Shown in pieces: positions 201 through 56,426 of a DNA stretch of 64,000 nt. A program made the position numbers and the translations under genes. Source of the DNA: Streptomyces sp. NBC_00490 (lineage in GTDB: Bacteria > Actinomycetota > Actinomycetes > Streptomycetales > Streptomycetaceae); NCBI RefSeq assembly GCF_036013645.1, contig NZ_CP107869.1:5828001-5892000 (forward strand), in the 5' to 3' direction. The notes beneath the pieces were generated by a model. It was given only the letters and a program-made list of their open reading frames with translations, was not told the DNA's origin and did not search any database. Each line of letters begins with the position of its first letter. The stretch's first letter is position 1.

Positions 201-974
201 TCAGCGGGCGTCGTCCGGGAGGAGCCGGGCGAGGGTGCGCACGGCCCGGTACTGCAGGGTCTTGATGGCGCCCTCGTTCTTGCCCATCACCCGGGCGGTC
301 TCGGCGACCGAGAGGCCCTGGAGGAAGCGGAGCGTCACACACTCCTGCTGCTGTGGGTTGAGGCGGCGCACGGCGTCCAGGAGGGCGGCGTTGGAGAGGG
401 ACTCCAGGACGGAGTCCTCCGGTGACCGCTCGACCTCGTTGGCGTCGAGCATCTCGCCGGTCGTCACTTCGAGACGAAAACGGCTGGACTTGAAGTGGTC
501 GGCGACGAGGTTCCGGGCGATCGTCACAAGCCAGGCGCCGAAGTCACGGCCCTGCCAGGTGAAGGTGCCGATCCTGCGCAGCGCGCGCAGGAACGTCTCG
601 CTGGTGAGGTCCTCGGCGGTCGCCTTGCCGCCCACCCGGTAGTAGATGTACCGGTAGACGGTGTCGCTGTACTGGTCGTAGAGGCGTCCGAAGGCGTCGG
701 CCTCGCCGGCCTGGGCACGCTCCACGAGGTCCATCATGCGGGCGCTGTCGCTGTCCGCGGCCGGTCGGCGCGCGGCGGTGGTGCCGGTCGAACGCCCTCT
801 TCTGCCGACAGCCGCGGAACCGTCGGCGAGTGCGTAGCACGGGCCGATCGGTGCCGTGGCTACGGCGAGGGCGGGGACGGCGTACGCGGTGGGGACGAAG
901 CCGCGCAACAGGTCTTGGACCGTTGCGCGCAGCGTAGCCAGGCCCGAGGCGTCAACCCCGACGTGTGGGTACAC
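201..974 (-). CDS. bldN: BldN-like ECF RNA polymerase sigma factor with N-terminal pro-sequence
   Basis: This 257-residue protein carries an ECF sigma-2 domain at about residues 80-150 (core RDFGAWLVTIARNLVADHF) and a sigma-4 helix-turn-helix at about 200-252 (GLSVAETARVMGKNEGAIKT). An extra 80-odd residue N-terminal extension beginning YPHVGVDASGLATL precedes them. In Streptomyces BldN/AdsA that extension is a pro-sequence removed by proteolysis to give the active factor, which directs aerial-mycelium genes such as chaplins, rodlins and bldM. The start is GTG at 974, with GGGAG a few bases upstream. A sigma-BldN-like promoter lies just downstream, and the adjacent HAD, glutaredoxin, rex and hem genes match the S. 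coelicolor bldN neighbourhood as I remember it. The identification rests on the extension plus context. Confidence 0.9.
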   Translation of the reverse strand: MYPHVGVDASGLATLRATVQDLLRGFVPTAYAVPALAVATAPIGPCYALADGSAAVGRRGRSTGTTAARRPAADSDSARMMDLVERAQAGEADAFGRLYDQYSDTVYRYIYYRVGGKATAEDLTSETFLRALRRIGTFTWQGRDFGAWLVTIARNLVADHFKSSRFRLEVTTGEMLDANEVERSPEDSVLESLSNAALLDAVRRLNPQQQECVTLRFLQGLSVAETARVMGKNEGAIKTLQYRAVRTLARLLPDDAR

Positions 975-1290
975 GGGACTCCCAGAGGCAGAGCTTCCAT
1001 CACGTGCAGTGCGGGACCGTTCACCCGTCGTAGCGACGGAGGGGTACCGGTTTGCGTCTGAGGAGAATAACGCTTCGTGCAGGCACTGCTACACCCAGTT
1101 GCTCAAATCATCGATTACGTCGCTTCTGTAACCGAATGACGCCCGTTCAAGTGCCGCAGAGTGACCGGTTGTTGATCAGATGAGATCGAGTTCCGGTCAT
1201 GGTCGGGGCGTGTTGTGGCCGTGTGCCGACAAGAGGACTGGATGGAGGAGGTGGGGGGTATTCAAGGTGATTCGGGCGCGAGCAGACTCG
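975..1290. other. bldN upstream region, no gene recognised
   Basis: About 316 bp separate bldN from the end of the HAD gene, and both genes read leftwards. The part at 1061-1160 is less GC-rich than its surroundings and should hold the bldN promoter and leader. I see an AGTGAC half-site near 1160 that resembles half of a BldD box, but no convincing full operator. Open frames here are shadows. Confidence 0.4.
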
Positions 1291-2217
1291 TCACCTGCGG
1301 CGGCGATGCAGAGCGATCGCGGCCGCAGTGCCTCCGGCAACCGCTCCTACGCCTGCTGCCGCGGGGATGCCGACCTTTGCCGCCTTGCGGCCCGTTCGGT
1401 AGTCCCTCAGACGCCAGTCCAGGTTCCTCGCGTGCCTGCGGAGCTTGGCGTCCGGGTTGATCGCGTAGGGGTGGCCCACCAGGGAGAGCATGGGGATGTC
1501 GTTGTGGCTGTCGCTGTAGGCGGCGCAGCGGTTCAGGTCCAGGCCCTCCGCCGATGCCAGCGCTCGGACCGCCTCCGCCTTCGCGGGGCCGTGCAGGGGT
1601 TCGCCCACCAGCTTGCCCGTATAGACGCCGTCCACCGACTCCGCCACCGTGCCGAGGGCGCCGGTCAGGCCGAGGCGGCGGGCGATCACCCCGGCGATCT
1701 CCACGGGGGCCGCTGTGACGAGCCACACCTTCTGGCCCGCGTCCAGGTGGGCCTGGGCGAGGGCGCGGGTGCCGGGCCAGATGCGTTCGGCCATGTACTC
1801 GTCGTAGATCTCCTCGCCGATGGACATCAGCTCGGAGACGCGGTGGCCCTGCACGATCGACAGGGCCGAGTCGCGGGCCTCCTGCATGTGTTCGGGATCC
1901 TCGATGCCGGCCAGCCTGAACCACGCCTGCTGCCAGGCGAACCGGGCGAGGTCGCGGGTCTCGAAGAACTTCCGCTTGTACAGGCCCCGGCCGAAGTGGA
2001 ACAGCGACGCACCCTGCATGACGGTGTTGTCGAGGTCGAAGAAGGCGGCTGCCTTGTCGTCGCCGAGTACCGGGAACACCGGTTCCCCACCTGGGGCGGA
2101 GGTCTCCTCGACCTCCTGTGACGACTTGCGAGCGGCCTCCGCCGAGGCCTCGCCTGCCAACACGCTCCGCGCCGTGGCGGAGCGCCTACGGGGAGTGAGC
2201 CATCCGAGAGCGGCCAT
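1291..2217 (-). CDS. HAD-superfamily subclass IB phosphatase-like hydrolase
   Basis: This 308-residue protein has the HAD motif I nucleophile DLDNT (Asp61 and Asp63, within [17 protein letters not shown]). Motif II is Thr in VWLVTAAP, and a C-terminal motif III region reads [13 protein letters not shown], which is typical of the IB group (SerB or CicA-like phosphatases). The substrate cannot be inferred. The last 25 residues ([15 protein letters not shown], then basic residues) look like a short membrane or tail anchor, which is unusual for a soluble phosphatase. The start at 2217 is the ATG that begins the conserved frame. The gene diverges from the glutaredoxin-like gene at 2336. Confidence 0.85.
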
Positions 2218-2335
2218 GGCGTGAGCATAGCCAGTTTGTTCGGAGCTTCCGGAGCCGAGAGGTTCGAAGGGTGTGAACTCTCCGCGACCGGGCCGTTAAA
2301 CAAGCGGATCCCGGCCCGGCGCCGACCGCGCGAGA

Positions 2336-2623
2336 ATGGCCGACATGAGTCCCATCTTCCGCCGCAAGCCGGCCAAGGCTCCCGAGGACCGGCTCGTCAC
2401 CCTTATCCGTAAGCCGGGATGCCATCTGTGTGATGACGCACAGATCGTCATCGAGCGGGTGTGCGGGGATCTGGGGGTCCCCTGGGAGCAGAAGGACATC
2501 TCCCAGGATCCCCAACTCCACGACCAGTACTGGGAACAGATCCCGGTCGTCCTGGTCGACGGGGACCAGCACACGTTCTGGCGCGTGGACGAGAAACGCT
2601 TGAGGACGGCACTGACCGAGTAG
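2336..2623 (+). CDS. glutaredoxin-like (DUF836-type) thiol protein
   Basis: This 95-residue thioredoxin-fold protein has a CxxC site (KPGCHLCDD, Cys29 and Cys32) after strand VTLIRK, and the cis-Pro region IPVVLVDG. These are the features of the glutaredoxin/DUF836 family. It probably acts in cytosolic thiol redox exchange, although its partner is unknown. It reads toward rex, the neighbouring redox sensor. An alternative in-frame ATG lies at 2345 and neither start has a clear ribosome-binding site, so the first three residues are uncertain. Confidence 0.85.
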   Translation: MADMSPIFRRKPAKAPEDRLVTLIRKPGCHLCDDAQIVIERVCGDLGVPWEQKDISQDPQLHDQYWEQIPVVLVDGDQHTFWRVDEKRLRTALTE

Positions 2624-2722
2624 TCCAACTCGCTCGACCCTTCGCTTAGGATCGATGGCGACTTGGTCCTGGGGGCGGGATTGCTGAGGAGAGTGTGCTG
2701 TTTTGCCCCCGAGAGAGACGCG

Positions 2723-2738
2723 CGTGACCCCGGTCACG
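2723..2738. promoter_or_regulatory. perfect palindrome matching the Streptomyces Crp motif
   Basis: CGTGACC-CC-GGTCACG is a perfect inverted repeat 27 bp upstream of the Rex operator. It fits the pattern GTG(N6)GNCAC described for S. coelicolor Crp. Role inferred from pattern and position only. Confidence 0.35.
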
Positions 2739-2764
2739 TTGGCCGGGCAAATCGGACACCATCT

Positions 2765-2782
2765 TTGTGCACGCGTTCACAA
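2765..2782. promoter_or_regulatory. Rex operator (ROP) upstream of rex
   Basis: TTGTGCACGCGTTCACAA is an 18-bp near-perfect inverted repeat matching the Rex consensus TTGTGAAnnnnTTCACAA with one deviation (C for A). It lies about 77 bp before the rex start and overlaps the proposed -35 box. This placement supports NADH-responsive autorepression of rex-hemACD, which is established for S. coelicolor. Confidence 0.9.
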
Positions 2783-2793
2783 AGACATAGCCT
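2765..2793 (+). promoter_or_regulatory. candidate rex-hemACD promoter
   Basis: TTGTGC at 2765-2770 and TAGCCT at 2788-2793 are 17 bp apart, a plausible vegetative (HrdB-type) -35/-10 pair. The -35 box lies inside the Rex operator, so bound Rex would occlude RNA polymerase. Confidence 0.55.
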
Positions 2794-2858
2794 GCTTTCG
2801 ACGGGGCGGTCTGGGTACGTGTGACCGCCTGCAGCCCCGCTCTACCCGCAGGAGCACC

Positions 2859-52972: not shown

Positions 52973-54289
52973 GTGCCCGCACTCACCCTCCGCGAAGTCC
53001 TTGTCCTCGACCCCGTCCGCGCCGCCGAGCCCGAGCTGCTGGCCGGGGAGGGCGCCCTGGACCGCCCGGTCCGCTGGGTGCACTCCAGCGAGGTCTACGA
53101 GGGCGCCAACTTCCTCGACGGCGGCGAACTGCTCCTCACCAACGGCTTCGGCCTCACCGACCCCGACGAGGAGGTCCGCCGCCGCTACGTCCGGGAGCTG
53201 GCCGCGCGCGGTGCGGCCGGGCTCGCGGTGGAGGTGGGGAGGTCCCTGCCCGCCATGCCGGCCGAGGTGGTCGACGAGGCCCGCCGCCTGGAGCTGCCGC
53301 TGCTGGCCATGCACCGCGTCGTGCCCTTCGTACGGATCACGGAGGCCGCCAATCGGGCGATCGTGGCGCGGGGGCTGTCCGGGCGGTCGGTCGTACGGCC
53401 CTGGGGCGACGACCACACGGCGGCCCTGCTGGCCGACCTCGCCGACCGGGCGGCACTGAACCAGCCCGAGGTGGAGGCGCGGGCGGCGCTCGCCGGGTTC
53501 CACCCGGGGCCCGGGGCGCGACTGATCGGGGTGTCGGTGCACGGGAGCCGGGAGACGGGGGTGGTGGACCGGGCGGTACGGGTGCTGGGCGGCGCGAGTG
53601 TCCTGCGGGCGGCGTTTCCGGGAGACGTGCTGGCGCTGCTGGCGTTGCCCGCGACCCGGACCGGTGACCCCGTGCGAGGGGTCCAGGACGCGTTCCGCTC
53701 CGCCGCCGAACCCGGGCTGACCGTGGCCGTCGGGCATGCCGTCGCCGTCGGGAGCGGCTGGCTGCGGTGGAGCGATACGTTGCGGGCGGCCCGTACGACC
53801 CTGGAGCTGGCGCTGACCGTCCCGGCCGCGGAGCCGGGGGTGCCCGAGGGGCCGCTGGTGACGTCGTCCCGGGCCCTCGCGCTGGAACGGGAGCTGACGC
53901 GGGGCGGGGTCGATGCGAACCGGGATCGGCTGGCTCGGTTGGTGCAGCACGCGCTGGGGCCGTTGTTGGAGTGGGAGGCCGCCCACGCGAGTGATCTTGT
54001 GCGGACGTTGGAGGTGCATCTGCGGAACGGGTGCTCGCCTACGCGGACGGCGGCTCTGCTGCATATAGGTCGGCAGTCGCTCTATCAGCGGTTGGAGCGG
54101 ATCGAGTCTCTGTTGGGGCTGGAGATCGGGGATCCGGATCTGTTGGGGGAGTTGTTGGCGGCGGCTTGTGCGTATCGGGTTGTTCGGGGGCGTTCAGGTG
54201 GGGTGGGCGAGGTGGGAGGTAGTCGGTTGAGTGCTGCGCCGTCGTGGCTGGTCGCGCAGTTCCCCGCGCCCCTGAGGGGGTTGGCCTAG
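52973..54289 (+). CDS. PucR-family transcriptional regulator
   Basis: This 438-residue protein has the N-terminal PucR domain (LTLREVLVLDPVRAAEPELL, RWVHSSEVYEGANFLDGGEL), a central GGDEF-like segment and a C-terminal HTH_30 (LVRTLEVHLRNGCSPTRTAA then LLHIGRQSLYQRLERIESLL). Such proteins control purine or nucleobase catabolism, which fits the divergent deaminase/oxygenase pair. GTG 52973 has GGAGG 5 bp upstream. The last 30 or so residues are poorly conserved, and VAQFPAPLRG is encoded by a dispersed repeat that has been read into the frame. Confidence 0.9.
   Translation: MPALTLREVLVLDPVRAAEPELLAGEGALDRPVRWVHSSEVYEGANFLDGGELLLTNGFGLTDPDEEVRRRYVRELAARGAAGLAVEVGRSLPAMPAEVVDEARRLELPLLAMHRVVPFVRITEAANRAIVARGLSGRSVVRPWGDDHTAALLADLADRAALNQPEVEARAALAGFHPGPGARLIGVSVHGSRETGVVDRAVRVLGGASVLRAAFPGDVLALLALPATRTGDPVRGVQDAFRSAAEPGLTVAVGHAVAVGSGWLRWSDTLRAARTTLELALTVPAAEPGVPEGPLVTSSRALALERELTRGGVDANRDRLARLVQHALGPLLEWEAAHASDLVRTLEVHLRNGCSPTRTAALLHIGRQSLYQRLERIESLLGLEIGDPDLLGELLAAACAYRVVRGRSGGVGEVGGSRLSAAPSWLVAQFPAPLRGLA
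54251..54273. repeat. GC-rich dispersed repeat, copy 3, inside the PucR coding end
   Basis: GTCGCGCAGTTCCCCGCG followed by CCCCT, preceded by CGTCGTGGCT exactly as in copy 2. Here it falls within the final codons of the PucR-type gene and encodes its C-terminal VAQFPAPL. Confidence 0.88.
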
Positions 54290-55197
54290 CGGAGCGTTAT
54301 GACGCTCGGGCCGTTGAAGGGGGCGTAGGAGGTCACTGTTTGTGGGGTGCGCAGCACCTCGTTCTCTGCGAACAGCTTTCGTGCTGCCTGGAAAGAGATC
54401 TCGTCCGAGACGACTGGTGCCACCCCGTCGTAGAACTTCCGTGACGGCTCCGGCAGGGGGGTTCCCGGTTCGCCCTCGTCCTCTCCCCAGACGTCCCACA
54501 GCAGGGTCTCGACCTTGTTGAGGGCGGCCAGGTCGAGGCGGATGCTGCCGGTCACGTACCGCTCGCCCCAGAACGGTCCCTCCTGTGGGCCGTGGAGGCC
54601 GAACGTCCTCTCGTCGGCGCCCTGTTCGCGGATCGCCCGCCATGCCTCGCCAGCGACGAGGAAGCGGTCGCGGGGGACGTCCATCGGGTCGAAGTCCACC
54701 TTCCAGTGGCCGCTGACGAAGGGGTCGGCGAGCTGGGCGTCGGCGAGCAGCCAGCCGCGTTCGGCGTCCCAGTACTCGGTGACGACGTGGTCGCCGTGGA
54801 AGCTGGACCCCCAGTAGTCGGCGAAGCCGATCCGGACCCGGGCCGGGATGCCCGCGTGGCGCAGGAACGAGCAGTGCAGCAGGGTGAAGTCCCGGCAGGT
54901 GCCGACGAAACGGTCGGCGGGACCGCGTCTGACCGGCAGCGGGGCGGCGTTGCGGGCGACGAGGATGCGCAAGGTGTCGTCGATGTACCGGGACTCGGCG
55001 TCGTTGTGGAGGCGGTCGGTCGGGTGGGTGTGGCCGAAGAGGTCGCCCTCGAGGCGGTGGATGAGCAAGTCCCGTGCGATGCGGGCGAGTTCGGCCGGGT
55101 CGTGCGGCAGACCGGCGTAGACGCCGGCGAGTGTGCCCGGGTCGGAGTACGTGCTCTGGGCGGCGTAGAAGGCGAGGGCTTCCTTGGTCTCGGGCAT
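54286..55197 (-). CDS. transglutaminase-fold protein
   Basis: This 303-residue cytosolic protein has a transglutaminase-like core: the catalytic Cys in FVGTCRDFTLLHCSFLRHAG, His in HGDHVVTEYWD, and Asp in LLADAQLADPFV. It may be a papain-like amidase or cross-linker of unknown substrate. ATG 55197 begins MPETKEALAFYAAQS. Its stop and the PucR stop share two bases (CTAG read both ways), so the two convergent genes end on the same four bases. Confidence 0.82.
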   Translation of the reverse strand: MPETKEALAFYAAQSTYSDPGTLAGVYAGLPHDPAELARIARDLLIHRLEGDLFGHTHPTDRLHNDAESRYIDDTLRILVARNAAPLPVRRGPADRFVGTCRDFTLLHCSFLRHAGIPARVRIGFADYWGSSFHGDHVVTEYWDAERGWLLADAQLADPFVSGHWKVDFDPMDVPRDRFLVAGEAWRAIREQGADERTFGLHGPQEGPFWGERYVTGSIRLDLAALNKVETLLWDVWGEDEGEPGTPLPEPSRKFYDGVAPVVSDEISFQAARKLFAENEVLRTPQTVTSYAPFNGPSVITLR

Positions 55198-55251
55198 GGG
55201 TCCGACCGTGCCAAAATGCGGCACGAATTGTCCAGATGGCCGTCGGGAGCC

Positions 55252-55599
55252 TTACTGGCCGCCGATCAGACTCAGGACCCTGTTCACTGCCTCCAGGACC
55301 GGCTGGCCCACCGCGCCGATCGTCGCCGCGATGCCTGCCACCGCCATCAGTGCGCGGTGACGGTCCTGCGGGAGTGCGCTCGCGTCGGCTCTGATGGCCG
55401 GGAGGGAGTCGTCGAGGGTCTGGGCGCTTGCCGCCGGGACCTGGTCGCGCAGCGATTCGATCAGGCCGCGGAGTTCCGCTACGGCATCCATCAGCGACGC
55501 CGTGTCGGCTGCCGGAACCTGGTGTTTGACGATGCCGGTGTTGCCCATGCCGCCGTGCATGTTCACGCTGTCGCCGAAGTAGTAGTTGTCGCCGCTCAT
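55252..55599 (-). CDS. small helical protein with N-terminal Gly/Asn motif, partner of the DUF6232 protein
   Basis: This 115-residue protein starts MSGDNYYFGDSVNMHGGMGN, then TGIVKH. A helical, coiled-coil-like middle follows (ASLMDAVAELRGLIESLRDQ) and a hydrophobic C-terminal stretch (LMAVAGIAATIGAVGQPVLE). I do not recognise a family. Its N-terminal motif repeats the last residues of the upstream DUF6232 protein, and the two genes overlap by four bases. A receptor/effector or co-assembly relationship is inference. Confidence 0.72.
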   Translation of the reverse strand: MSGDNYYFGDSVNMHGGMGNTGIVKHQVPAADTASLMDAVAELRGLIESLRDQVPAASAQTLDDSLPAIRADASALPQDRHRALMAVAGIAATIGAVGQPVLEAVNRVLSLIGGQ

Positions 55600-56234
55600 C
55601 GGTTCGCCATCCCCACGTTGCCCGTACCGCCGTACATGTTGACGTTGTCGCCGAAGTAGTAGTTCCTGGGGTTGACCGTGAGGCGGTCGACCCTGACGTG
55701 GAACTCGGTCTCGGGGTGCTCGATGGCGTGCACGATGTTGCCGACGAGCTGGTCCAGTTGGTGCGGGTCGGAGCTGGTGACCATGGCGATGGACGGGCCC
55801 GACGTCTCGACGGCCAGCACGTACAGGGTGGGTGAGGACAGTACGGCCACCAGCTCCACCAGGCTGAATACCAGCGCGGCGATCGCGCCCAGCCAGACGA
55901 AGGTGAGGATCCCGCCGGCCATGCTCTCGCTCGCGAGGCTGGTGAGACCGCCGAGGATCGTCATGGTGAACGCCACCGACAGGATGATCGCCACGCGCTT
56001 GAGGAAGAGCACGGTGGCGTCCTTGCGGCGGGGCGTGAGCATGAAGGTGTAGACGCGGGTGATGTTCGCCAGTGGATACGCGCCGCCGCCGACCCAGAGG
56101 AGGTGCTTGCCGACCCGCAGATCGATGCCGTGTAACGCCTGCGGCGGGACCAGGGGCGGGGGCGGGATGTCGTAGTGCCCTGGTGGTTCGGTTCTCTCCA
56201 ACGGTCCCCCTGCGCATGGGTGATGACGGTTCAT
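55596..56234 (-). CDS. DUF6232-type membrane protein with C-terminal Gly/Asn motif and a TTA codon
   Basis: This 212-residue protein has a Pro-rich N-terminus (YDIPPPPLVPPQALHGIDLR) and a DUF6232-like beta segment (HLLWVGGGAYPLANITRVYT). Two transmembrane helices follow (VAIILSVAFTMTILGGL, ILTFVWLGAIAALVFSLVEL). A cytosolic part (FHVRVDRLTVNPRNYYFGDN) ends VNMYGGTGNVGMANR. The Leu codon at 56135-56133 is TTA, implying bldA dependence. ATG 56234 is the most likely start and further in-frame codons exist upstream. It is coupled (ATGA) to the small partner gene. Confidence 0.75.
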   Translation of the reverse strand: MNRHHPCAGGPLERTEPPGHYDIPPPPLVPPQALHGIDLRVGKHLLWVGGGAYPLANITRVYTFMLTPRRKDATVLFLKRVAIILSVAFTMTILGGLTSLASESMAGGILTFVWLGAIAALVFSLVELVAVLSSPTLYVLAVETSGPSIAMVTSSDPHQLDQLVGNIVHAIEHPETEFHVRVDRLTVNPRNYYFGDNVNMYGGTGNVGMANR

Positions 56235-56370
56235 CACTGACTGATGGTTATTAACTACTCCATGTGGTCTGTGGTGCAAGTCAGTATGCGCGGGCAACTG
56301 TGAGTCTGTTGTGGAGAGTTGAGATCGGAGGCGGCCCGCCGACGGTTGCCGGCCGGCGGGGTGGGCAAAA

Positions 56371-56409
56371 GAGGCCCGGCCCGACGCTGTGGGCGTCGGG
56401 CCGGGCCTC
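56371..56409 (-). terminator. intrinsic terminator of argG
   Basis: GAGGCCCGGCCCGACGC and GCGTCGGGCCGGGCCTC form a perfect 17-bp stem with a 5-base loop. On the minus strand it is followed by TTTT, giving a classical rho-independent terminator 18 bp after the argG stop. Confidence 0.93.
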
Positions 56410-56426
56410 TGTCGTGCGGGGTGTGC

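Follow-up and report, generated by a model that had tools for sequence, protein, structure and literature searches.

The window analyzed here is a stretch of 64,000 nucleotides from Streptomyces sp. NBC_00490. It contains two overlapping genes on the minus strand, which encode a membrane protein of the DUF6232 family and a small helical protein, hence termed the partner. The following features were assigned to this locus.

55596..56234, minus strand: DUF6232 membrane protein gene (Pfam PF19744), 212 amino acids from the ATG at 56234
55252..55599, minus strand: partner gene, downstream of DUF6232, encoding a small helical protein of 115 amino acids that is distantly DUF5955-like
55596..55599, minus strand: four-base ATGA start/stop overlap of the DUF6232 and partner genes
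55608..55664, minus strand: C-terminal motif NYYFGDNVNMYGGTGNVGM of DUF6232, residues 191–209
55531..55587, minus strand: N-terminal motif NYYFGDSVNMHGGMGNTGI of the partner, residues 5–23
55839..56027, minus strand: predicted transmembrane hairpin of DUF6232 (AlphaFold2, hydropathy), residues 70–132, inserted in a beta-sheet domain
55264..55512, minus strand: predicted four-helix bundle of the partner (AlphaFold2), residues 30–112
56133..56135, minus strand: TTA codon of DUF6232 (Leu34), read from the sequence

The likely start of the DUF6232 gene is TTG 56201, giving 201 amino acids, because the entry of the window's own protein (P0114) has this length. The four-base overlap noted in the first-pass annotation is present at ATGA 55596–55599, with both genes on the minus strand. 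The membrane protein matches PF19744 with 88.5 bits (cut-off 27.4), and the partner reaches 16.4 bits against DUF5955 (PF19380), under the cut-off of 27.1. The partner has 111 homologues at E 0.001, one of which (P0103) is annotated as DUF5955. Pfam lists both DUF6232 and DUF5955 as families of unknown function, and a search of the open literature found no paper that names either of them.

Several other features surround the pair. The frame of the partner is open back through most of the DUF6232 gene and forms an ORF of 321 amino acids (55252–56217, minus strand), which might mislead automatic annotation into a single long, spurious gene call. With the same orientation, a gene that looks like a transglutaminase type (54286–55224, minus strand) begins 27 bases downstream of the partner. 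It was found in two of the 73 named loci and is thus probably a chance neighbour. Between argG and DUF6232, a GC-rich inverted repeat seen by eye (56370–56412) may end the argG transcript; it is absent from the output of the terminator scan, which requires a T tract.

The TTA codon had been taken to tie the membrane protein to development. The codon itself is there, and the bldA-type developmental tie is weak because the codon is not conserved: it occurs in 21 of 77 DUF6232 frames of the relatives, at scattered places, and in none of 74 partners. The hydrophobic C-terminal stretch ascribed to the partner is likewise present (residues 84–102, mean Kyte–Doolittle value 1.74); it lies inside the predicted four-helix bundle and is not clearly transmembrane.

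In the AlphaFold2 model of the partner (mean pLDDT 74.6), helices span residues 30–51, 56–69, 77–93 and 95–112, and residues 1–29 are predicted to be disordered (pLDDT below 50). The model of DUF6232 (mean pLDDT 70.1) consists of strands, the hairpin of two long helices at residues 70–132 with hydropathy peaks of 2.0 and 2.37, further strands and a helix; residues 195–212 have pLDDT below 50. Judging by the type of fold, we tentatively take the body of DUF6232 to be a PH-like domain split by the hairpin. Both termini of the protein are most likely cytoplasmic in this predicted topology, since a two-helix hairpin puts them on the same side of the membrane and an Arg/Lys-rich stretch before the first helix suggests that this side is the cytoplasm. 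The partner begins with the motif and has by eye no signal peptide; read from its sequence, it must be cytoplasmic as well.

The 19-residue stretches at the end of DUF6232 and at the start of the partner are identical at 14 positions. They are near-copies, as claimed in the first-pass annotation, which had put the agreement at about 15 of 19. Their alignment score is 86, and 20,000 shuffled versions of the partner tail reach 50 at most, so chance and composition were rejected as the source of the likeness. The DNA of the two motif copies is also alike along the same stretch. Outside the motif, no relation between the two proteins was seen, in line with the first-pass annotation: a search of the 10.8-Mb genome with the DUF6232 protein at E 0.001 found only the protein itself and the motif of the partner.

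The motif is highly conserved on both sides. The C-terminal copy was found in 121 of 121 DUF6232 proteins (the query and the best 120 of 266 homologues, one of which is the window's own protein). The N-terminal copy was found in 107 of 107 aligned partners, a set from which P0109–P0113 were excluded; following inspection of the sequences, the search pattern had been broadened to admit three variants. The motif is thus kept between orthologous pairs, a point that the first-pass annotation had singled out for checking. The residue preceding Gly-Gly is Tyr in 116 of 121 C-terminal copies versus His in 84 of 107 N-terminal copies, the residue preceding the last Gly is Val in 117 of 121 versus Thr in 84 of 107, and Lys comes after the N-terminal copy in 101 of 107 partners. 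By sequence, then, the two sides are not interchangeable. The helical part of the 107 aligned partners is conserved too, most strongly in its C-terminal third.

The relatives with the pair include S. canus, S. coeruleorubidus (ATCC 13740, locus L157), S. viridochromogenes, Kitasatospora purpeofusca and Streptantibioticus silvisoli. In a profile search of the loci from L115 on, the partner adjoins 74 of 77 DUF6232 frames, and the remaining three are fragments or lie at contig ends; L206, among the 73 named loci, yielded no DUF6232 frame. The ATGA overlap (offset –1) is found in 44 of 54 DUF6232 pairs, and the pair that is annotated on the plasmid of S. clavuligerus shows the four-base overlap too. 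The partner is probably co-translated with DUF6232.

A profile of the motif alone found 63 places in 31 of 199 Streptomyces genomes at E 0.1. These places lie side by side as an adjacent pair in 28 of the 31 genomes, the other seven places fall, by position, in DUF6232 or partner genes, and the window's own genome has exactly two. All 63 places are therefore in DUF6232 or partner genes, and at this threshold no unrelated protein in the 199 genomes carries the motif, as judged by a profile that was built from these same genes and that far-diverged carriers would escape. A wide occurrence of the motif in unlinked, unrelated proteins, which would have spoken against the earlier proposal, was not seen. 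DUF6232 was found in 28 of 121 genomes of the genus, and partner-like genes in 49 of 199 genomes. Two loci have an unusual arrangement. L095 (G074:C1:3569500-3574500) has two tandem DUF6232 genes followed by one partner, and both tails resemble the partner motif. In L112 (G054:C2), an ORF of 488 amino acids contains a Gly/Asn-rich stretch followed by a C-terminal partner-like helical segment, and from its sequence it is a possible one-chain version of the pair.

Divergent DUF6232 pairs (together with the window pair termed family 1) have other motifs, which still match between the two ends of the same pair. Thus, IGSMRDFYNASGPGSVGR at one end matches IGSMRDFYNASGDGAVGR at the other in L021, IGQVGDNFKVFGSGNVGK matches IGQVGDNFQVYGTHNIGK in L025, NGPVFHQNGAQNTGI matches NGPVFHQTGAQNIGI in L105, and YGPVVNMTGGRENTGF matches YGPVVNMNGGRENIGI in L064. 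We performed a permutation analysis with one representative for each of 13 clusters of the DUF6232 body (single linkage, 50% identity). The mean score is 75.5 for true pairs versus 38.9 (sd 4.8) for re-paired ends, and none of 100,000 re-pairings scored as high. The own neighbour was ranked first by 10 of 13 C-termini and 11 of 13 N-termini; three C-termini favour the N-terminus of another cluster, and one motif type is common to five of the 13 clusters. When the clusters were compared two at a time, with windows of 28 and 34 residues, likeness within pairs exceeded likeness across pairs in 71 of 78 cases, and independent descent of two ancient copies would predict the opposite. The idea that one frozen motif was inherited by a single clade was rejected, because the motifs differ among clusters and match within pairs.

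With 9, 13 and 23 clusters, the permutation p-value reaches its floor, 0.002; with 4 clusters, the coarsest division (40% identity), the result is weak (median p 0.042). Windows of 40 residues, which take in the conserved end of the domain, gave an unfavourable outcome: the within-pair score exceeds that of the best distant C-terminus for just 14 of the 54 pairs. The number of pairs fell from 55 to 54 when L103, which is broken at its second end, was dropped.

Matched tails could arise as a by-product at the DNA level, if a short duplicated repeat were kept alike by recombination or gene conversion and had no role in the protein. In L022/L249 (G004), L063 (G187) and L101 (G191), single frames run from the start or end of DUF6232 through one motif copy into the partner. 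These three loci look like deletions between the two motif copies and suggest that the copies can recombine. An excess of identical codons within pairs points in the same direction: 497 of 721 identical residues (0.689) have the same codon within pairs versus 0.638 for re-paired ends (sd 0.017, highest of 2,000 re-pairings 0.693), so part of the likeness may stem from gene conversion. However, the other 224 of the 721 identical residues use different codons, the protein motif is near-invariant over the 121 and 107 sequences, the side-specific residues are kept (Tyr versus His before Gly-Gly, Lys after the N-terminal copy), and the same design is repeated in an unrelated membrane family described below. 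From the codon comparison, the pair likeness seems to be held mostly at the protein level, possibly with a share of gene conversion. An origin purely as a DNA by-product is already disfavoured, and we consider it very improbable.

Nine further loci emerged from weak matches to DUF5955. In these, the gene before that of a small protein encodes a quite different membrane protein, some 600–800 residues long (family 2). The facing ends scored above 500 shuffles in all nine of these initial loci, and three of the upstream proteins are 26–30% identical to a fourth. A Pfam scan of four family-2 membrane proteins found an FHA domain in one and nothing above the cut-off in the other three. In L246 (G018, 959–2839, plus strand), an N-terminal FHA domain (50.8 bits) is followed by the conserved C-terminal region of family 2 and the tail. 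The Gly/Asn-rich tail of family-2 membrane proteins recurs at the start of the small protein: NNGVINTGEMSNVQNQPGALGSQQS recurs as NSGIQNSGSMQNVQNQPGAFNSSQT in L288, YNISGDITGPANIGNNGQI as YNFHGDISGPSNFGDHGKI in L287, and VFIGSMSGGAVATG as IVIGTMTGGAAAVG in L269. The window's own genome has a family-2 pair as well (L283, G000:C1:548882-550480), with the tail GIYNEGDVHNSSLAAGDGATAIFN and the next protein GIHISGGVHGSAFAVGNHARAEMN. The last 60 residues of the L283 membrane protein are the same as in L277, which has a score of 50, its shuffles reaching at most 36.

Of 40 distinct tail-bearing family-2 loci, 36 scored above all 300 shuffles, a count that includes many close relatives and for which the best-matching start codon of the small protein was picked; L273, L281, L284 and L291 had no match. 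Kinship among these loci is corrected for by a test on 13 clusters, in which the downstream ORF was selected without regard to the motif. This rule gave an ORF in 41 of 48 loci, 38 of them tail-bearing and still including the non-matching L284 and L273; the seven loci without such an ORF are five tail-less loci, L281 and L291. The mean score of true pairs is 76.8 versus 32.4 for re-paired ends, and none of 100,000 re-pairings scored as high. The own neighbour was chosen in 13 of 13 cases with 13 clusters, 16 of 18 with 18 clusters and 8 of 8 with 8 clusters; with 8 clusters, the true value was reached by 2 of 100,000 re-pairings. A tail-less subgroup of family 2 behaves differently: 0 of its 8 loci scored above 300 shuffles, and the three loci with a downstream ORF in the blind test had own scores of 19, 25 and 20, without a match.

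Among ten family-2 small partners compared with DUF5955, two are over the cut-off (L250 with 33, L253 with 45.1), five are below it, and three have no match. The family-2 small partners are presumably all helical bundles, by extrapolation from the structure model of the window's partner. The family-2 membrane profile was found in 147 of 150 genomes of the genus and in 12 of 296 genomes of the phylum, counts that include the tail-less subgroup. Canonical DUF5955 is a separate gene, present in 69 of 81 genomes of the genus, mostly in one copy; the copy in the window's own genome (G000:C1:7942255-7942515, L211/L247) has by eye no Gly/Asn-rich tail.

The tails differ from the bodies of the proteins in composition. 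In both families, the tails contain 48–54% G/N/Q/S/T versus 21–26% in the bodies, 8–11% D/E/K/R versus 16–26%, and 1–3% Pro versus 5–10% (L284, L273 and three tail-less loci were left out of the family-2 count). The median aligned core of the tails is 20 residues in family 1 and 26 in family 2. Identical residues make up 67% of the aligned tails in family 1 and 52% in family 2, and same-charge positions outnumber opposite-charge positions by 63 to 10 of 1122 in family 1 and by 28 to 9 of 1013 in family 2. Both the identity and the same-charge excess are partly by construction, since a local alignment selects for similar residues.

The motifs are thus paired, conserved, restricted to the pairs in the genomes searched, and co-diversifying in two unrelated membrane families. 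From this pattern, physical contact between paired tails is probable. A lock-and-key contact is disfavoured, because complementary ends would be expected and the aligned tails are alike in residue and charge. A cross-beta or amyloid nature of the contact, for which we see roughly even odds, is favoured because the tails stay alike pair by pair, as in-register stacking needs, and because the tail composition and gene geometry resemble known amyloid signalling motifs.

We propose that DUF6232 and its partner constitute a signalling module that acts through in-register cross-beta templating of the tails, and assign to this reading a probability of about 0.5. DUF6232, a beta-sheet domain split by the transmembrane hairpin, would display its disordered Gly/Asn-rich tail, and the partner, a small four-helix bundle, would bear a near-copy of it at the N-terminus. 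Clustering or a change of state of DUF6232 could make its tails stack in register. The stacked tails could then template partner tails into the same cross-beta assembly, which would gather the helical bundles at the membrane and switch on their output. We somewhat favour a signal that passes from the membrane protein to the small protein, because the upstream proteins are variable and sensor-like (one with an FHA domain) and the small partner recurs. The FHA domain in one of four family-2 membrane proteins fits a sensor role. By analogy with the polarity of NLR/BELL pairs, where the C-terminal motif is on the effector, the direction could be reversed. Membrane damage or a defence-related growth arrest is a conceivable but doubtful output. 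PADLOC-DB gave no convincing defence profile for the window pair or the L241 pair: DUF6232 has no match, the window's partner weakly matches PDC-M45A (E 0.0057, 14.4 bits over 35 residues), and in L241 the membrane protein matches PDC-M02B (E 0.03) and the small protein PDC-M14B (E 6e-4, 17.4 bits).

The main rival is tail mimicry without amyloid, which we regard as rather unlikely. Both tails could be short linear motifs for one pocket, located on the helical bundle, on the domain of the membrane protein or on a third protein. The tail of the membrane protein would then displace or replace the small protein's own tail, and likeness of the two would be required. Such mimicry accounts for matching and co-diversifying tails equally well as stacking, and the models predict disorder, typical of linear motifs, for both tails of the window pair. 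However, if the pocket were on a third protein that all pairs share, pairwise diversification would not be expected, and the tail composition is rich in Gly/Asn with little charge and proline. The partner model has no confident docking of its tail, which is weak evidence given the motif pLDDT below 50.

A second alternative to templating is heterotypic exchange of beta-strands in a closed small oligomer, such as a rung of a beta-solenoid or a strand-swapped dimer, forming a constitutive tether without a switch. Since 44 of 54 pairs have the ATGA overlap, the two proteins may be co-translated and assemble stoichiometrically, which would suit a tether, as would the short motifs with their median cores of 20 and 26 residues. 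A constitutive tether would nevertheless be satisfied by complementary strands, and near-identical tails would not obviously be needed. We consider this exchange improbable.

If cross-beta templating is correct, streptomycetes could have a large NLR-independent class of amyloid-type pairs. In this tentative generalization, at least two unrelated families of membrane sensors would carry private Gly/Asn-rich "address" tails that are copied at the N-terminus of the small effector encoded by the next gene. Pairwise co-diversification would have created some twenty or more addresses, and one cell could operate several mutually insulated wires side by side. PMC7889193 names signalling amyloids that act outside NLR pathways as an open question and considers present searches to be biased. 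The DUF6232 pairs and their relatives are candidates for such NLR-free signalling amyloids, with a membrane protein instead of an NLR, many motif variants and two unrelated families. Because the tails match pair by pair, specificity becomes a code that can be tested by asking which tails cross-seed and which do not. The proposal also offers an initial hint at what DUF6232 and DUF5955, both Pfam families of unknown function, might do.

Motifs common to the products of adjacent genes have repeatedly been used to identify amyloid signalling motifs, according to PMC9815663; a BASS3 motif was the positive control in a Podospora foci assay of that paper. The fungal motifs HRAM/HET-s, sigma, PP and PUASM described there were recognized by the same criterion of matching motifs in adjacent genes as used here, and the fungal motifs, to which GDQN (PMC12261475) also belongs, have Gly/Asn/Gln-rich patterns, as do the present tails. 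In contrast to our pairs, the fungal motifs described in these papers have NLR partners. Published predictors of amyloid signalling motifs are based on grammar and ProteinBERT models (PMC8086366, PMC12261475). A Pfam scan of 18 motif peptides at E 10 showed no sequence relation to the fungal motifs and no match to RHIM, HET-s or sigma, the 21-residue queries being short for such a scan. The heterotypic amyloid of two proteins with similar motifs in the mammalian RHIM necrosome, named in PMC7889193, is the proposed analogy, and the motif peptides again have no RHIM profile match with these short queries. The bacterial effector-associated and death-like domains covered in PMC8195603 are also small helical adaptors that meet like with like in multicellular bacteria. 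Their contact is made by folded domains, whereas the matched part here is a predicted disordered tail, and the pair shows no STAND NTPase.

The closest known systems are the bacterial amyloid signalling sequences, BASS1–10, of NLR/BELL gene pairs, reportedly described by Dyrka et al. in 2020. The first-pass annotation had likened the geometry of the window pair to that of BASS/HET-s-like systems. Membership of BASS/HET-s is not supported: the pair has no NLR, no recognised BELL or HeLo domain and no RHIM or HET-s profile match, and its polarity is mirrored. Pfam found no NLR in the window pair or in the four family-2 membrane proteins. In BASS, whose effector is a BELL, CHAT or TIR protein, the motif is C-terminal on BELL and N-terminal on the NLR (PMC7889193), and in the DUF6232 pairs it is C-terminal on a membrane protein and N-terminal on a small helical protein. 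We do not file the pair as BASS, because it lacks an NLR, though it would work like BASS. The part of the claimed amyloid-pair geometry that holds is the matched facing ends of adjacent genes. As BASS is described, both systems have adjacent or overlapping genes, a short motif common to two otherwise unrelated proteins, a small helical bundle in one of these proteins, an occurrence in filamentous actinobacteria, and many motif families.
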